A stretch of DNA of 64,000 bases from Athalassotoga saccharophila (lineage in GTDB: Bacteria > Thermotogota > Thermotogae > Mesoaciditogales > Mesoaciditogaceae). The stretch lies in contig NZ_AP019551.1 in NCBI RefSeq assembly GCF_009936215.1, positions 775,501 to 839,500 of the forward strand, written 5' to 3'. A program made the translations under genes and the position numbers. This document shows, in pieces, positions 19,963 to 26,307 of this stretch; positions within the stretch are counted from its first letter, which is position 1, and each line of letters begins with the position of its first letter. The notes beneath the pieces were generated by a model, which saw only the letters and a program-made list of their open reading frames with translations, had not been told where the DNA came from and searched no databases.

Positions 19963-19992
19963 TTGACATATACGGTTAAGATGAAGTATAAT
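19963..19992 (+). promoter_or_regulatory. Promoter of the cohesin-like/dockerin gene pair
   Basis: TTGACA (19963-19968), 18-bp spacer, TATAAT (19987-19992). The predicted start is about 20 nt before the ribosome site of the lipoprotein gene. Confidence 0.8.
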
Positions 19993-20025
19993 TTTTTGAC
20001 ATCTTATTGAAAGGGGATGAAGTAT

Positions 20026-21633
20026 TTGAAAACAAGGGGTAAGTTACTTCTTCTTTCCGCATCAATCGCCATAGTGGCCTTAGTCTTAAGCGGATGTTTT
20101 TTAATGCCTCCAACGGTAAGGTTTATCTCTCCAACCTCTCTTAACAACTCTGCATATCCGGTTAACTCTCCAATAACCTTTTCATGGTCTGGCGAGAGTG
20201 GCCTTACTTACACCTTAACTCTTTCTGCATCCGGCATCGGTCCGATAACTTTGCTTTCTAATTCGAATCTTACAACCTACCAAACATCGATAGCGACGCC
20301 CGGAGTCTACACGGCCCAAATCGTCGGTAAAACGAACTTGGGTGGTACCGGCAAAGATACCACGACATTTAACGTTACGTCTTTGAAGATCACCAATTCT
20401 GCCACAATTTACGCCAAGAACAGCGTGACGGTCTCTTGGGAATCTCTCGACAACAAGCCTCACACGTACCTTTACTCGATAGACAATGGCGCAAGTTGGA
20501 CAAGTACAACACAAACGAGTGCGACCTTGACAAATCTTCCAGATGGAAATTACACATTCATGGTCAAACTTGCCCAGTCTTATGTCCCTCCGGCCGTTTA
20601 CAATTTTGAAATTTTGACGGCAGGACCAACGATAGGAATAGCGGTTTCCGACAGAACTGAAGGTGGATTTTACGGAATAGGTTCCCATCCTCAGGGCAGG
20701 TATGCAGAAATAAGTTGGGCATCTAACCAGCCTTTGGGCGCTTTACTTGTTAGATTTTACATGTACGGGCCATTGGGGACTGGCATAAGATACAGGCTTA
20801 ACATCTCTCCAAATGGTCAGTGGGTTGTCCTTCCGGCCACATCGACGGCCCAGCAATGGTATTTGATTCCTCATCCGAATACGAATACCGACATGATAAT
20901 TTCGGCAACAGGCCCTGGTAGTTTGCAGGTCTACGATATGAGTGGAAATGCTTACAACGTACCTGCGTTCCAATTGGGTCAGACCTACGCGATAGGTATG
21001 TTGCCCGTTAACTGGCTTGGAACACAAGGATCCTTTGCAATAGCCCCATTTGTGCTTAGCGAAAGATATGGACTTTCGAATATGCCGCAAATGTACGTTG
21101 GATACAACACGACCTCAGTTGCAACGGGTGGATCTTTTGTTGCATCTGTTTACGCTCCAAACCTTACGGCATACGCGTCTGGCACCCATCAGATAGTCAA
21201 CGACAATGTCGATCATACAGACATCACAACGAACAATGGTCTTATGTACATGCAATTCTCAGTTCAACTCTCCCCCGGCCTTCAACTTAACAGCGTTACA
21301 TTCCCGGACATGATGGCGGGAAAGGTTAACCTTTGGACGTACAAGTACGATCCAAATACCGGAATTCTTACTGTGTACAGAGGATTTGTAAATCCTGTCC
21401 CGGGCGCACCGGTGGCGCAGTCTGCAACCGATATAGCCGTCCAGTTACAATGCACGGTACCGGCCACCTACAGCGGATCTTACGCCTTTGCAAGCGTAGT
21501 CTATGAAGGATACTTTGGCAATGAAGGATACAGCAATCTCAATCCCGTCTTCAAAGATAATTCTTTGAGGAATATAGACGGTGTTGTGATTTTGAGATCG
21601 GTTCCGGTCGTTACCGTCGGTAGCGCTCAGTAA
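20026..21633 (+). CDS. Lipoprotein with Ig-like modules and a cohesin-like C-terminal domain
   Basis: TTG 20026 gives MKTRGKLLLLSASIAIVALV followed by lipobox Leu-Ser-Gly-Cys (Cys about 24). An ATG at 20017 touches the AAAGGGG ribosome site and is less likely. Residues about 28-118 and 120-198 are Ig/fibronectin-like (ITFSWSG, VTVSWES). Residues 200-350 form an unassigned beta-rich region. Residues about 354-530 follow the pattern of cohesin modules: GGSFVASVYAPNL at the start, MYMQFSVQLSPGLQLNSV in the middle, YKYDPNTGILTVYRGF, and final DGVVIL. The next gene, 14 nt on, is a protease with a dockerin. The cohesin call is inference from pattern and context. Role proposed: surface anchor for dockerin proteins. 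Confidence 0.7.
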   Translation: MKTRGKLLLLSASIAIVALVLSGCFLMPPTVRFISPTSLNNSAYPVNSPITFSWSGESGLTYTLTLSASGIGPITLLSNSNLTTYQTSIATPGVYTAQIVGKTNLGGTGKDTTTFNVTSLKITNSATIYAKNSVTVSWESLDNKPHTYLYSIDNGASWTSTTQTSATLTNLPDGNYTFMVKLAQSYVPPAVYNFEILTAGPTIGIAVSDRTEGGFYGIGSHPQGRYAEISWASNQPLGALLVRFYMYGPLGTGIRYRLNISPNGQWVVLPATSTAQQWYLIPHPNTNTDMIISATGPGSLQVYDMSGNAYNVPAFQLGQTYAIGMLPVNWLGTQGSFAIAPFVLSERYGLSNMPQMYVGYNTTSVATGGSFVASVYAPNLTAYASGTHQIVNDNVDHTDITTNNGLMYMQFSVQLSPGLQLNSVTFPDMMAGKVNLWTYKYDPNTGILTVYRGFVNPVPGAPVAQSATDIAVQLQCTVPATYSGSYAFASVVYEGYFGNEGYSNLNPVFKDNSLRNIDGVVILRSVPVVTVGSAQ

Positions 21634-21647
21634 GCGGGGTGAATGGT

Positions 21648-23036
21648 ATGAAAAAGATTACATTTATTCTGATCGCTTTGGTTTTGATTTCGGTCTTTGC
21701 CTTTGGAATTTCTCTAAGTACGCAGACTGTTATGAGCACAGCCACCGTTGAGGCTGTAAATGCACAAAATACCCAGTTGGATCTTCCGTGGACGGCTGGA
21801 CTTAACGGTTTTAACGGAAAAACGATAGGACAGTTGTCCGTTATGAACGGGTGGCGTCCACTTCCGAAGGATTTCGTTAACGCCATTTTATCGAAGGCAA
21901 AAAAACTCACAACGACAGATGATATGCTCATGGGATCTTACACGATGTTCAATCCGTTGACGATGGATGCGTCTAACCTTCCAACTGCCTACGATCTAAG
22001 CAATCAATTCGTCCAGTATCCCGGCATTTCTTACGTAACGCCTGTCAAAGATCAGGGATACCATGGCACATGCTGGGCATTCTCCACGACTGAAACCTTT
22101 GAAACGGCCCTTGCAATGCAAGGCGTTGTACCATATTCAAATATCCCGGTTCTTTCAACCCAGTTTGTTGCATACCACGACATAAACTGGAATCTTTTGA
22201 TCGCGGCAAATGGATGGGTAGTGCAGGATTCCAACTACGATGCAGGCGGAAACCAGTACTTCTCGATGTACAACGCGATAAGGTATGGAATACCACCTGC
22301 CTCGGATTTTCCGACGATATCTTACGAGAATTCTCCGTGGATAGAATGGGATCCGCAAAATCCGAACTGGCAAAAAGATTTGATTTATTCGCAGGGGACA
22401 CTTTTGTTGCTCAGCGCTCCCGAGGAGGCATATTACTACAACGTTAGTTACGATCAATACATAGACGCTATAAAGACTATGATAATGAAGTACGGATCCG
22501 TCAGCGTCTCTTATTCAGTGCCGGCAGACTTTTTCAGTTATCAAAGTGGCGTTTATATTCCTGTAAATCCCGGCTCCTCTTCCAACCCTTACGAAGGAGG
22601 CCATGCCGTCCAGATAGTTGGATGGATAGACAATTACGTGGCTTCCAATGGCCAGACTTACAACGTGTGGATAGTCAGAAATTCATGGGGTTCAAGTTGG
22701 GGCATGAATGGATACTGGCTACAGCCTTGGGTAACACCTCAGGAATATGCCTCCGGCAAAGTGCCGGCATGGAAATTCGAATCTTACGGTAACTGGTTCT
22801 TCGTTCCCATTTTCAAAACAGTTAATGCCGCTTATTCTCAGGCCGACTTCAACAACGATGGATACGTTAACATGGAAGACTGGAACTTGCTCGTAAGTGC
22901 CATGCAGCAGACGAATCCATCTTCTCAAACTATAGCCAAATACGATATAGGAGTGCCAAAGACCGGAAAGATCGGTGGAGGTTCTCTGGAACAATTCATG
23001 TATTTGTGGAATCTGGCGGCCCAGAGCGGACATTAA
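21648..23036 (+). CDS. Secreted papain-like (C1A) cysteine protease with C-terminal dockerin
   Basis: 462 aa from ATG 21648, which has GCGGGGTG at good spacing; a GTG at 21639 lies in that motif. A signal peptide (residues 1-20) and a pro-region to about 115 precede the catalytic domain. Catalytic residues: Gln136 and Cys142 in VKDQGYHGTCWAFST, His319 in GGHAVQIVGW and Asn345 in VRNSWGSSWG. Residues about 399-462 are dockerin-like: DFNNDGYVNMEDWNLL is a good calcium-loop/helix repeat; the second repeat (YDIGVPKTGKIGGGSLEQF) has an insertion. It is followed by a strong terminator. It probably degrades external protein and docks on the adjacent lipoprotein. Bacterial C1A proteases are known, but this pairing is unusual. 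Confidence 0.9.
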   Translation: MKKITFILIALVLISVFAFGISLSTQTVMSTATVEAVNAQNTQLDLPWTAGLNGFNGKTIGQLSVMNGWRPLPKDFVNAILSKAKKLTTTDDMLMGSYTMFNPLTMDASNLPTAYDLSNQFVQYPGISYVTPVKDQGYHGTCWAFSTTETFETALAMQGVVPYSNIPVLSTQFVAYHDINWNLLIAANGWVVQDSNYDAGGNQYFSMYNAIRYGIPPASDFPTISYENSPWIEWDPQNPNWQKDLIYSQGTLLLLSAPEEAYYYNVSYDQYIDAIKTMIMKYGSVSVSYSVPADFFSYQSGVYIPVNPGSSSNPYEGGHAVQIVGWIDNYVASNGQTYNVWIVRNSWGSSWGMNGYWLQPWVTPQEYASGKVPAWKFESYGNWFFVPIFKTVNAAYSQADFNNDGYVNMEDWNLLVSAMQQTNPSSQTIAKYDIGVPKTGKIGGGSLEQFMYLWNLAAQSGH

Positions 23037-23050
23037 AAGTTAACAAAACA

Positions 23051-23083
23051 ATAAAGGGCGCTAAATGCGCCCTTTATTATTTT
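23051..23083 (+). terminator. Terminator after the dockerin protease
   Basis: AAAGGGCGC (23053-23061) pairs with GCGCCCTTT (23067-23075) around a 5-nt loop, followed by ATTATTTT. Confidence 0.9.
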
Positions 23084-23134: not shown

Positions 23135-24175
23135 TTGAAAATAGGCATTCCGAGAGCGTTATATTTTTACGTATATTATCCGATGTGGTATGGATTTTTT
23201 TCGTCCCTTGGTCATGAAATGAAACTTTCCATTCCGACGAACAAAGAGATCATAAATTTAGGAGTTTCACATTCAGTTGACGATATATGTATTTCCGTTA
23301 AGGTATTTCATGGCCATGTTAAATATCTGCTCAACAAGGATGTAGACTTTGTCTTCGTTCCGAGAATCGCGAGCGAGGAAAAATACAAATACACATGTCC
23401 AAAACTTGCTGCACTTCCCGACCTTATGAAAAGTGCCTTTGTTAGCGATGCAGGTAGAATTTTGACGGCGACCTTTTACACAAGGCAGGGAGACAAACCT
23501 ATCATAGAGGCTTTTGAAGAGATAGGAAGGCAACTTGGAGATCCCGAAGAAAAGGTAAAGAGAGCGACAAAAGAAGGTATAAAATACCAAAATCTCGCGA
23601 CAAAAGCGTTGAGATCCGGCCATACCTTTCTTGATATTGTCAAAAACATAAAAAACCTTGAAGAACTTATAAAAAGGCCCGTCGAAAAGAAGAGATACAC
23701 CGTAGCCCTCGCCGGTTTTCCTTACGATGTTTACGATACATTCACGAATGGAGATGTCATATCAAAACTTGAAGATTCCGGAGTTGGAATAGTGACGACT
23801 GATATGCTTGATCCAAAAGTTTACAAGCATTATTCCAAATACATGATAAAAGATCTGTTCTGGTATCAGGCAAATGCCGCCGCAAAAGGTGGGATGTATT
23901 ACATAGATTCACCAGACATAGATGGAATAATAAGCATATCATCATTCAATTGCGGTATAAGTTCTATATATCAGAAATTACTTGATCTTTATTCAAAAGA
24001 GATTGGAAAGCCTGTCATGCACATAATAGTTGACGAACAAACCGGGGATGCTGGTCTTGCAACGAGAATAGAGGCATTTATCGATTTAATACGCGTGAAA
24101 AGAGGTGATGGTCTTGTCTCGCAAGAAAATAACCTACACGGTACCGAGAATGGGGTACACGTACGCAGCGTTTGA
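23135..24175 (+). CDS. COG3580/DUF2229-like component of an activase-type redox system
   Basis: 346 aa. It begins GIPRALYFYVYYPMWYGFF, characteristic of the DUF2229/COG3580 part of the large 'acyl-CoA dehydratase activase-related' proteins. Conserved features are the PTNKEIINLGV stretch, Cys in DDICIS, YTCPKL and SSFNCGISS, which may be iron-sulfur ligands, and a closing DEQTGDAGLATRIEAF motif. The fold is thought to be related to 2-hydroxyacyl-CoA dehydratase subunits; the substrate is unknown. TTG start behind AGAGGTGG. First of three tightly packed genes; its 3' end overlaps the next gene by about 60 nt. Confidence 0.8.
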   Translation: MKIGIPRALYFYVYYPMWYGFFSSLGHEMKLSIPTNKEIINLGVSHSVDDICISVKVFHGHVKYLLNKDVDFVFVPRIASEEKYKYTCPKLAALPDLMKSAFVSDAGRILTATFYTRQGDKPIIEAFEEIGRQLGDPEEKVKRATKEGIKYQNLATKALRSGHTFLDIVKNIKNLEELIKRPVEKKRYTVALAGFPYDVYDTFTNGDVISKLEDSGVGIVTTDMLDPKVYKHYSKYMIKDLFWYQANAAAKGGMYYIDSPDIDGIISISSFNCGISSIYQKLLDLYSKEIGKPVMHIIVDEQTGDAGLATRIEAFIDLIRVKRGDGLVSQENNLHGTENGVHVRSV

Positions 24176-25262
24176 GAGTTTCTTTAAAATTCTTGGATAC
24201 GACGTTATAATACCTGAGCCTACAAACACCGAGACTATAAAGGAAGGCGTTTCCAACTCTCCAGAGTACATGTGTTTTCCATTTAAAATATTGCTTGGTC
24301 AATTTGAAAGGGTGCTTGAGAAAAATCCCGACAGATATTTCAAGGTAGTATCTCTTGAAAGTTATGGGCCTTGCAGATTCGGATATTACAGTCCTTTGTA
24401 TTACAAGATATTGAGAGACAAAGGTTTTACGAACTTTGAAATAGTCAACATCGAAGGGATCTATCCACCACTTTACAAAGGTATTCCAAGATTTTTCAAA
24501 AAACTCGTAAAACTCACCGGATGGCACGCACCGTGGACAGTTGTCAAAGCCTTTGTCATAGCGGGATGGAAGGTTTACGCGCTTGAACAACTTGAGAAAA
24601 AACTTTACCATCTCATTCCAAGAGAGAAGGTTACAGGATCAACTGAGAAGATCTTCAACGCGGCAGTTGAAAGGATAAGACATGCTCCGAACAAAGTCAA
24701 AGCCATAAAGAAGATTTTGAACGAAGAACTCGAGAAGATGGAAAATAATCCCCATGTCGAGCGCGATGATCTTCCAAAAATAGGCCTTGTCGGAGAGGCT
24801 TACATATTGATGGATTACAGCAATAACCTTGATATAGAAAAGAAACTGGCCTACATGGGAGTAGACGTGGATAGATCTTTGAGGGTTACGAACTGGACGC
24901 TTGATAGGCTCATAAAGGCAAAATCGCATAAGGCTCACATGTTAGAGGTGAACAAGGGATATCTCGATTTCTTCATAGGCGGGGATGGTCAGGAAAGTAT
25001 AATGAATACGATACTTTACAAGAAGGCCGGATATGATGGCGTCATTCAGGCCCAACCATTTGGATGCTTGCCAGAGACGGCCGCAAAGGAAATTCTTACA
25101 AAAGTAAGTGAAGATTACGATATACCCGTCTTAAGTCTCGCATTTGACGAGCAAACGGGTGAGGCCGGATTCGTTACAAGGCTTGAAGCCTTTGTTGATA
25201 TGATAAAGAGCAGAAGACAAATGAAAGAAGAAAAAAAGGAATCCGTAACGGTTGAAAATTAG
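24114..25262 (+). CDS. COG3581-like component of an activase-type redox system
   Basis: About 382 aa from TTG 24114 (MSRKKITYTVPRMGYTY), which stands 5-6 nt after AGAGGTGA; GTG 24105 and ATG 24108 are alternatives inside that motif. Probable cluster ligands are Cys in EYMCFPFK, YGPCRFGYY and PFGCLPE. The end (FDEQTGEAGFVTRLEAF) mirrors the end of the preceding protein (DEQTGDAGLATRIEAF), so the two are probably paralogous halves. In many genomes both are fused to activase domains in one large protein; here they are separate. Function unknown; likely a low-potential electron-transfer partner of the next protein. Confidence 0.8.
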   Translation: MSRKKITYTVPRMGYTYAAFESFFKILGYDVIIPEPTNTETIKEGVSNSPEYMCFPFKILLGQFERVLEKNPDRYFKVVSLESYGPCRFGYYSPLYYKILRDKGFTNFEIVNIEGIYPPLYKGIPRFFKKLVKLTGWHAPWTVVKAFVIAGWKVYALEQLEKKLYHLIPREKVTGSTEKIFNAAVERIRHAPNKVKAIKKILNEELEKMENNPHVERDDLPKIGLVGEAYILMDYSNNLDIEKKLAYMGVDVDRSLRVTNWTLDRLIKAKSHKAHMLEVNKGYLDFFIGGDGQESIMNTILYKKAGYDGVIQAQPFGCLPETAAKEILTKVSEDYDIPVLSLAFDEQTGEAGFVTRLEAFVDMIKSRRQMKEEKKESVTVEN

Positions 25263-25272
25263 AGGTGAAAAG

Positions 25273-26307
25273 ATGTCAAAAACAGTTGCTTTGGGAATAG
25301 ATATAGGTTCTGTAACGACGAAGGTTGTCTTTATAGACGAAAATGATGAGATAATAGAGGGTCTCTACATTCGCACGAAGGGAAATCCAATAGACACTAT
25401 AAAGGCGGGAATGATAGAGGCCTACAACGTTATTTCTTCAAAATACGGAGACATAGAGGTTATGGCCGTTGGAACGACTGGAAGTGGAAGGCAACTTGCC
25501 GGTGTTGTAGTCGGTGCCGATATCATAAAAAATGAGATCTCGGCCCACGCTTACGCGGCTATTCACGAAGTGCCGGACGTTTCCACCATCTTCGAGATAG
25601 GTGGACAGGATTCGAAGATAATTTTTATAAGAAATGGGGCCGTCACGGATTTTGCGATGAACACGGTTTGCGCCGCCGGAACTGGATCTTTCCTCGATCA
25701 TCAGGCCGAAAGGATCGGTATCGGTATAGAAAAATTTGGAGAATACGCACTTCGGGCCACAAATCCAGTTAGAATAGCGGGAAGATGTACCGTCTTTGCC
25801 GAATCAGACATGATTCACAAGCAGCAAATGGGTGCAACGCCAGAGGATATAATAGCTGGGCTTGCCGAAAGCCTTGTCAGGAATTACCTTAACAACCTTG
25901 CCCGTGGAAAGGAATTGCTTCCAAAATTCGTCTTCCAGGGTGGTGTGTCCGAAAATATAGGGATAGTTAAGGCTTTCGAGAATGCAGTTGGGGCAGAGGT
26001 AATAGTACCGAAGAACAACAAACTCATGGGAGCATGGGGCGTTGCGATGCTCGCAAAGAGGGAGATCGAGATAACAGGTCAAAAGACGAATTTCAAAGGT
26101 TTTAAAGTGACAGAACTTGAGCATAAAACTCGGGTCTTTTATTGTGATGGTTGCGCGAATAATTGTGAGGTGTATGAAGTCATAGAAAACGGAGAGACCA
26201 TAGCCTACTGGGGAGACAGATGCGGCAAATGGTCCAACAGGTTGACTTCCAAGGTAAGAAGAACTGAAAGGGCAGACAGAAGAGAAGAAATAAACAGTGA
26301 GAAGTGA
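25273..26307 (+). CDS. BcrAD/BadFG-family ATPase (dehydratase/reductase activase)
   Basis: ASKHA-fold ATPase that couples ATP hydrolysis to electron transfer from a bridging [4Fe-4S] cluster. 344 aa from ATG 25273, with AGAGGTGA upstream. Nucleotide motifs: GIDIGSVTTK (8-17), GTTGSGR and EIGGQDSK. The two cluster cysteines of the HgdC-type dimer are present: Cys133 (TVCAAGTGSF) and Cys172 (GRCTVFAES). Beyond the usual 260 residues there is a tail with CDGCANNC and DRCGKW, four more cysteines that may bind a second cluster. The last dozen codons are Arg/Glu-rich and look like low-complexity filler. Confidence 0.88.
   Translation: MSKTVALGIDIGSVTTKVVFIDENDEIIEGLYIRTKGNPIDTIKAGMIEAYNVISSKYGDIEVMAVGTTGSGRQLAGVVVGADIIKNEISAHAYAAIHEVPDVSTIFEIGGQDSKIIFIRNGAVTDFAMNTVCAAGTGSFLDHQAERIGIGIEKFGEYALRATNPVRIAGRCTVFAESDMIHKQQMGATPEDIIAGLAESLVRNYLNNLARGKELLPKFVFQGGVSENIGIVKAFENAVGAEVIVPKNNKLMGAWGVAMLAKREIEITGQKTNFKGFKVTELEHKTRVFYCDGCANNCEVYEVIENGETIAYWGDRCGKWSNRLTSKVRRTERADRREEINSEK

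Follow-up and report, generated by a model that had tools for sequence, protein, structure and literature searches.

Organization of the locus

The window analysed here is a stretch of 64,000 nucleotides from Athalassotoga saccharophila (RefSeq contig NZ_AP019551.1, positions 775,501 to 839,500; genome of about 2.04 Mb), and coordinates are counted from its first nucleotide. Two neighbouring genes on the forward strand form the unit under study. The first (20017..21633, stop codon at 21631-21633) encodes a lipoprotein that is also supported by orthologues and has 538 aa when read from ATG 20017 or 535 aa when read from TTG 20026. The second (21648..23036, stop codon at 23034-23036) encodes a papain-like protease of the C1A type with 462 aa and a Sec-type signal peptide without a lipobox. 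A spacing of 14 nt separates the lipoprotein stop codon from the protease ATG at 21648; both reading frames and this spacing were present as described in the original prediction. TTG 20026 is the likelier start of the lipoprotein gene as judged from the sequence, because the Shine-Dalgarno motif AAAGGGG (20010..20016, forward strand) is read at the usual distance, 9 nt before it, and because this start agrees with that of the nearest homologues (MKLRGK/MKVRGK).

The pair was originally proposed to have its own promoter and terminator. Upstream, a sigma-70 consensus promoter, TTGACA-18-TATAAT, was found on the forward strand (19963..19992) with 12 of 12 matches. Promoter-like sites in the whole region number 8 compared with 7.7 in shuffles, i.e. 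they stand at shuffle level, and the sole point in favour of this candidate promoter is its perfect single match. Downstream, an intrinsic terminator stem-loop is present on the same strand (23050..23078). The genes that follow (23135-26307) resemble, by eye, 2-hydroxyacyl-CoA dehydratase-type subunits and an activase, and are conserved beside the pair in near relatives only.

The lipoprotein and its C-terminal domain

The lipoprotein carries the lipobox LSGC (20086..20097, forward strand) at residues 24-27, with Cys27 as the lipobox cysteine (numbered from ATG 20017). A lipobox-like motif was recognized in 24 of 27 aligned lipoproteins; the other three comprise one with the motif inside an overlong ORF (G057) and two that are cut at contig ends (G005, G064). 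The combination that defines a bacterial lipoprotein, a signal peptide with a lipobox cysteine, was found in the window protein and in the orthologues whose start is present. What the motif shows is predicted lipid anchoring, and not which membrane or membrane face is used in these toga-bearing diderms.

The Ig modules noted earlier in this protein proved to be real, and form two Ig/FN3-like spacer domains (20113..20616, forward strand, approximately residues 33-200; Pfam Y_Y_Y 5.2e-7 and a weak Ig_J match). In the AlphaFold2 model, residues 33-123 align with FN3-like modules at Z 11 (VIA). They are followed by a middle beta domain (20689..21066, forward strand, approximately residues 225-350), the length of which differs between families.

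The C-terminal domain (21073..21630, forward strand, residues 353-538) had been called a cohesin from its sequence pattern, and the call is now backed by the predicted fold and by Pfam matches of the orthologues. An AlphaFold2 model of the lipoprotein, built with 17 aligned sequences, has a mean pLDDT of 82.7; within the C-terminal domain, the core strands reach at least 90, and two loops and the extreme end are lower. Alignment to PDB chains with VIA gave the cohesin 4fl4_I as the best match of residues 353-538 (Z 13.2, 2.9 Å, 140 residues). Cohesins, both cellulosomal and non-cellulosomal, made up 47 of the 50 matches listed for the model, and the remaining three cover residues 28-123, not the C-terminus. 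Among the non-cellulosomal cohesins, 2xdh and 2vo8 matched the window domain at Z 12.4 and Z 11.3, respectively. The Foldseek E-value ranking was set aside for this model; it returned multi-domain Ig and complement proteins that span the whole model, and the per-domain VIA comparison was used instead.

The window lipoprotein has no match to Pfam Cohesin (PF00963), and a search of PDB sequences gave no cohesin match either. The orthologue at the same gene position in G007 matches Pfam Cohesin at 3.8e-8 (33.9 bits, cut-off 24.1), and the same-position lipoproteins of G028 (7.4e-5), G043 (1.0e-4) and G020 (0.0036) match below the cut-off. A profile of the cohesin domain gave borderline matches only to PDB sequences, the top four of which are cohesins (1qzn and related, E 0.04). 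Because the predicted fold and the orthologues match, the lack of a Pfam or PDB sequence match was not taken as absence of a cohesin, and the assignment of the C-terminal domain as a predicted cohesin is well supported by model and homology. Weak matches to the NCBIfam models Por_Secre_tail and Phr_nterm were dismissed as meaningless.

The protease and its dockerin-type domain

The C1A catalytic domain of the protease (21978..22811, forward strand; Peptidase_C1 9.4e-23) contains Gln136, Cys142, His319 and Asn345, all four of which are invariant in 17 aligned proteases, in agreement with the complete active site that had been described. The homologous protease of G051 models as a papain fold, with Z 21.8 to Der p 1. 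A 96% identical protease occurs in a MAG labelled Mesoaciditoga sp., which places the window in the Thermotogota.

The last 64 residues of the protease (residues 399-462; 22842..23033, forward strand) form a dockerin-type domain. Taken in isolation, this domain matches Dockerin_1 at E 0.0021 with 18.6 bits, which is below the cut-off of 22.9. Of 28 homologous domains, 27 are recognized by Dockerin_1 with an E-value no higher than 0.1 (the lowest being 1.9e-9), and a dockerin profile searched against PDB sequences ranks cellulosomal dockerins first, with calmodulins below. The first calcium loop, DFNNDGYVNMED (residues 400-411, DxNxDGxVxxxD; 22845..22880, forward strand), is intact from D400 to D411, the first repeat having been pointed out in the original prediction, and D400, D404 and D411 are invariant in the 28 domains. 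The second loop, DIGVPKTGKIGGGS (22944..22985, forward strand), is degenerate, a point on which the prediction was silent. Its acidic ligands are lost throughout the window genus (G000, G001, G002) and its acidic positions are retained in other genera, e.g. DIGIPKDGRIDGND and DLNGDGKVNGND. The latter loop, from G102, is canonical, and both loops are textbook in G100 and G102. As the second-loop acidic ligands are lacking in the window genus, we class the domain as a one-loop dockerin homologue; by homology, it is a dockerin relative with one intact loop and not a textbook dockerin.

Conservation of the pair

The survey covered 103 Thermotogota genomes (class). The lipoprotein and protease genes were directly adjacent and in the same order in 26 copies from 25 genomes, with a spacing of -32 (overlong start) to +15 nt among the pairs measured. 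No counter-example to adjacency was found in the 103 genomes among dockerin-bearing proteases with upstream DNA present, and the other dockerin proteases (G003, G020, G061, G069) sit at contig ends. The homologues of the two genes, which had been expected to co-occur, do so wherever a dockerin-bearing protease has sequence upstream of it. The cohesin profile marked 28 places in 27 of the 103 genomes, all of them in these lipoproteins, and strong dockerin profile matches (E below 1e-17) fell solely on these proteases. A search for further dockerin proteins in the window genome, as originally suggested, returned none: the profiles identify one cohesin and one dockerin, and the Pfam models neither a cohesin nor a dockerin. 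Its recurrence in 25 genomes from the class means that the arrangement is not due to chance. The flanking genes are common to the window and its own family or near relatives only, and general synteny therefore does not explain why the two genes stay together.

In G055 (L157:2000-3600, G055:C16), beside leuS, stops and frame changes disrupt the lipoprotein gene, and all that survives of the protease is its signal peptide. The cohesin in this genome was considered as an orphan and rejected, given the broken gene and the missing protease; the loss of both genes together is a co-decay of the pair.

Two tandem, diverged pairs of cohesin lipoprotein and dockerin protease are present in G067 (L139:3293-9112, G067:C33), and offer a natural test of pairing specificity.

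Dockerin and lipid anchor among homologous proteases

Seven homologous proteases lack a dockerin (G000:C1:1737524, G002:C75, G003:C80, G007:C114, G024:C54 and two in G083). All seven have a lipobox of their own, and a cohesin lipoprotein is found upstream of none of them. Conversely, no canonical lipobox was found in the 27 dockerin-bearing proteases; the second-copy protease of G067 has an equivocal LLAC motif. In a maximum-likelihood phylogeny built from the catalytic domain, one branch (support 100/99) splits the dockerin state from the lipobox state, and the anchor swap is thus one evolutionary event, unreplicated. These sequences are good evidence that a protease has either a dockerin or a lipid anchor, with the distribution reflecting a single event, and they suggest that docking replaces lipidation, again through a single evolutionary switch. 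The two protease lineages, lipidated without a dockerin and dockerin-bearing without a lipid anchor, would allow a direct test of such a replacement.

For three of the dockerin-less proteases the preceding gene was compared with Pfam, and in each case it encodes a PQQ-propeller lipoprotein. A different conserved pair, in which a PQQ-type beta-propeller lipoprotein directly precedes a lipidated dockerin-less C1A protease, was observed at L054:4019-6414 (G000:C1), L148, L149, L055 and L053 (Pfam-confirmed in three).

A putative minimal anchor for the protease

We consider it quite likely that the two genes encode a minimal 1:1 cohesin-dockerin anchor that would hold the protease at the envelope. 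The first gene would yield a lipoprotein whose lipid-modified cysteine, at the lipobox found in the sequence, is set in a membrane, with the Ig-like domains as probable spacers and the predicted C-terminal cohesin as receptor. The second gene is probably transcribed from the same promoter, and its product, judged from the sequence, carries no lipid anchor and is exported via Sec. The dockerin-type domain at the protease C-terminus, recognized by homology, would bind the cohesin made alongside it and thereby keep the enzyme at the envelope, where the substrate may be either proteins of the envelope itself or, if the enzyme serves the uptake of peptides, proteins from outside. Cohesin and dockerin would thus probably form a plug and socket of the kind found in cellulosomes, with one of each, that tethers the protease to the membrane.

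The predicted cohesin fold and the co-occurrence of the genes lend support to the earlier reading of the pair as a minimal docking system with a protease as cargo. Counting in favour of the anchor are this fold together with the Pfam Cohesin matches of the orthologues and the dockerin profile matches, the adjacency of the genes, the confinement of profile matches to the pair, the exclusion between lipobox and dockerin, the joint loss in G055 and the lack of general synteny. To these can be added the model of a read-through fusion of the G051 cohesin, protease and dockerin, which has a mean pLDDT of 82.6, a pTM of 0.77 and a dockerin pLDDT of 93-96. The fused model favours docking in a suggestive manner only, as pTM is not a PAE and the fusion is a single one; the VIA matches listed for it are C1A proteases only and are silent on a docked pose. 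Counting against the anchor are the degenerate second calcium loop in the window genus, the Pfam scores of the window cohesin and dockerin, both under the cut-offs, and the dependence of the swap on one change in the tree, with the equivocal LLAC of the second G067 copy.

The loss of the second-loop ligands in G000, G001 and G002 and the low Pfam scores of both domains could also mean that, although the two domains derive from a cohesin and a dockerin, the window-genus dockerin with its one good loop is non-binding; the pair would then be retained for some other reason, or the protease would be set free. This has a small chance of being correct: the degenerate dockerin is 90-93% identical between three species, its first loop is intact, the sole cohesin of the genome is still adjacent, and single-sided binding by one repeat is possible in principle. 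Docking is inferred, and operon partners need not touch, so the two proteins might instead act in the same process without mutual binding, the EF-hand domain merely stabilizing the protease and the cohesin binding another envelope component. We regard this as less probable again, since each genome has one copy of either half of a known receptor-ligand pair and has the two side by side, dockerin and lipobox exclude each other among the proteases, both genes decayed jointly in G055, and the fused model reaches the pTM given above. Some Thermotogota lipoproteins have other dockerin-like and cohesin-like modules, but membership of the unit in a larger cellulosome-like complex, with more dockerin enzymes on the lipoprotein, is highly improbable given the single cohesin in the lipoprotein and the one cohesin and one dockerin that the profiles detect in the window genome, where the Pfam models detect none.

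Under the preferred docking model, we tentatively propose, with somewhat less than even confidence, that the cohesin-dockerin pair is an old, phylum-wide replacement for lipidation: a protease lineage would have switched between its own lipid anchor and a dedicated lipoprotein, with one plug for one socket and a dockerin able to run on a single calcium loop.

Comparison with known cohesin-dockerin systems

The unit shares with the cellulosomes of Acetivibrio/Clostridium thermocellum and Ruminococcus flavefaciens (ScaE) the cohesin fold, the dockerin EF-hand repeat, the C-terminal position of the dockerin on the enzyme and a cell-fixed receptor. It differs from them in the single cohesin and single dockerin of each genome, a lipoprotein anchor and a C1A protease as the enzyme. 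The multi-cohesin scaffoldin and set of dockerin enzymes that characterize a cellulosome are lacking in the window genome.

Cohesins and dockerins outside cellulosomes were reportedly reviewed by Peer et al. in 2009. Cohesin modules of this kind are represented by Archaeoglobus fulgidus (2xdh), Clostridium perfringens (2vo8/2jh2) and ANME archaea; they attach to other proteins, whereas here a strict two-gene unit of lipoprotein and protease is kept across a bacterial phylum. The bacterial C1A protease of solved structure 4ci7 matches the window protease in sequence and bears an annotation as a cell-surface protein; it is anchored through its own cell-wall-binding repeats and is not known to use a cohesin-dockerin pair. 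Non-cellulosomal cohesins and dockerins are known from both bacteria and archaea, including ANME archaea (PMC9012536). Dockerin-bearing peptidases are known from cellulosomes, namely RflaF_05439, reported to bind the surface-anchored ScaE, and a subtilisin-like protease of C. thermocellum (PMC3573020). These resemble the present case in linking cysteine or serine peptidase modules to a dockerin; RflaF_05439, however, is an NlpC/P60 protein in a large cellulosome and the window protease is of the C1A type.

Non-cellulosomal cohesins and dockerin-bearing proteases are known already; for the strict 1:1 unit of lipoprotein and protease, no report was found in the literature searched, in which few subscription journals were covered. 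If the proteins bind as proposed, they would represent a natural cohesin-dockerin pair reduced to its minimum, with a protease as cargo, and would be useful for studying the roles of these modules outside cellulosomes.

Other cohesin- and dockerin-like modules in Thermotogota

A lipoprotein of 1580 aa in G011 (L158:3064-7806, G011:C17) combines FN3 domains and a caspase-like C14 domain with a cohesin match at 145-264, which is directly followed by a dockerin loop (274-302); this may be a cohesin-dockerin dyad within a single chain. Dockerin-like modules of a second class were observed in other Thermotogota proteins, at L151:2007-4775 (G028:C1), L152 (G086:C1), L153 (G004:C17) and L154 (G067:C18), in which the first loop is clear (GDFNLDGVIDIDDY) and the second loop follows after a longer insert.
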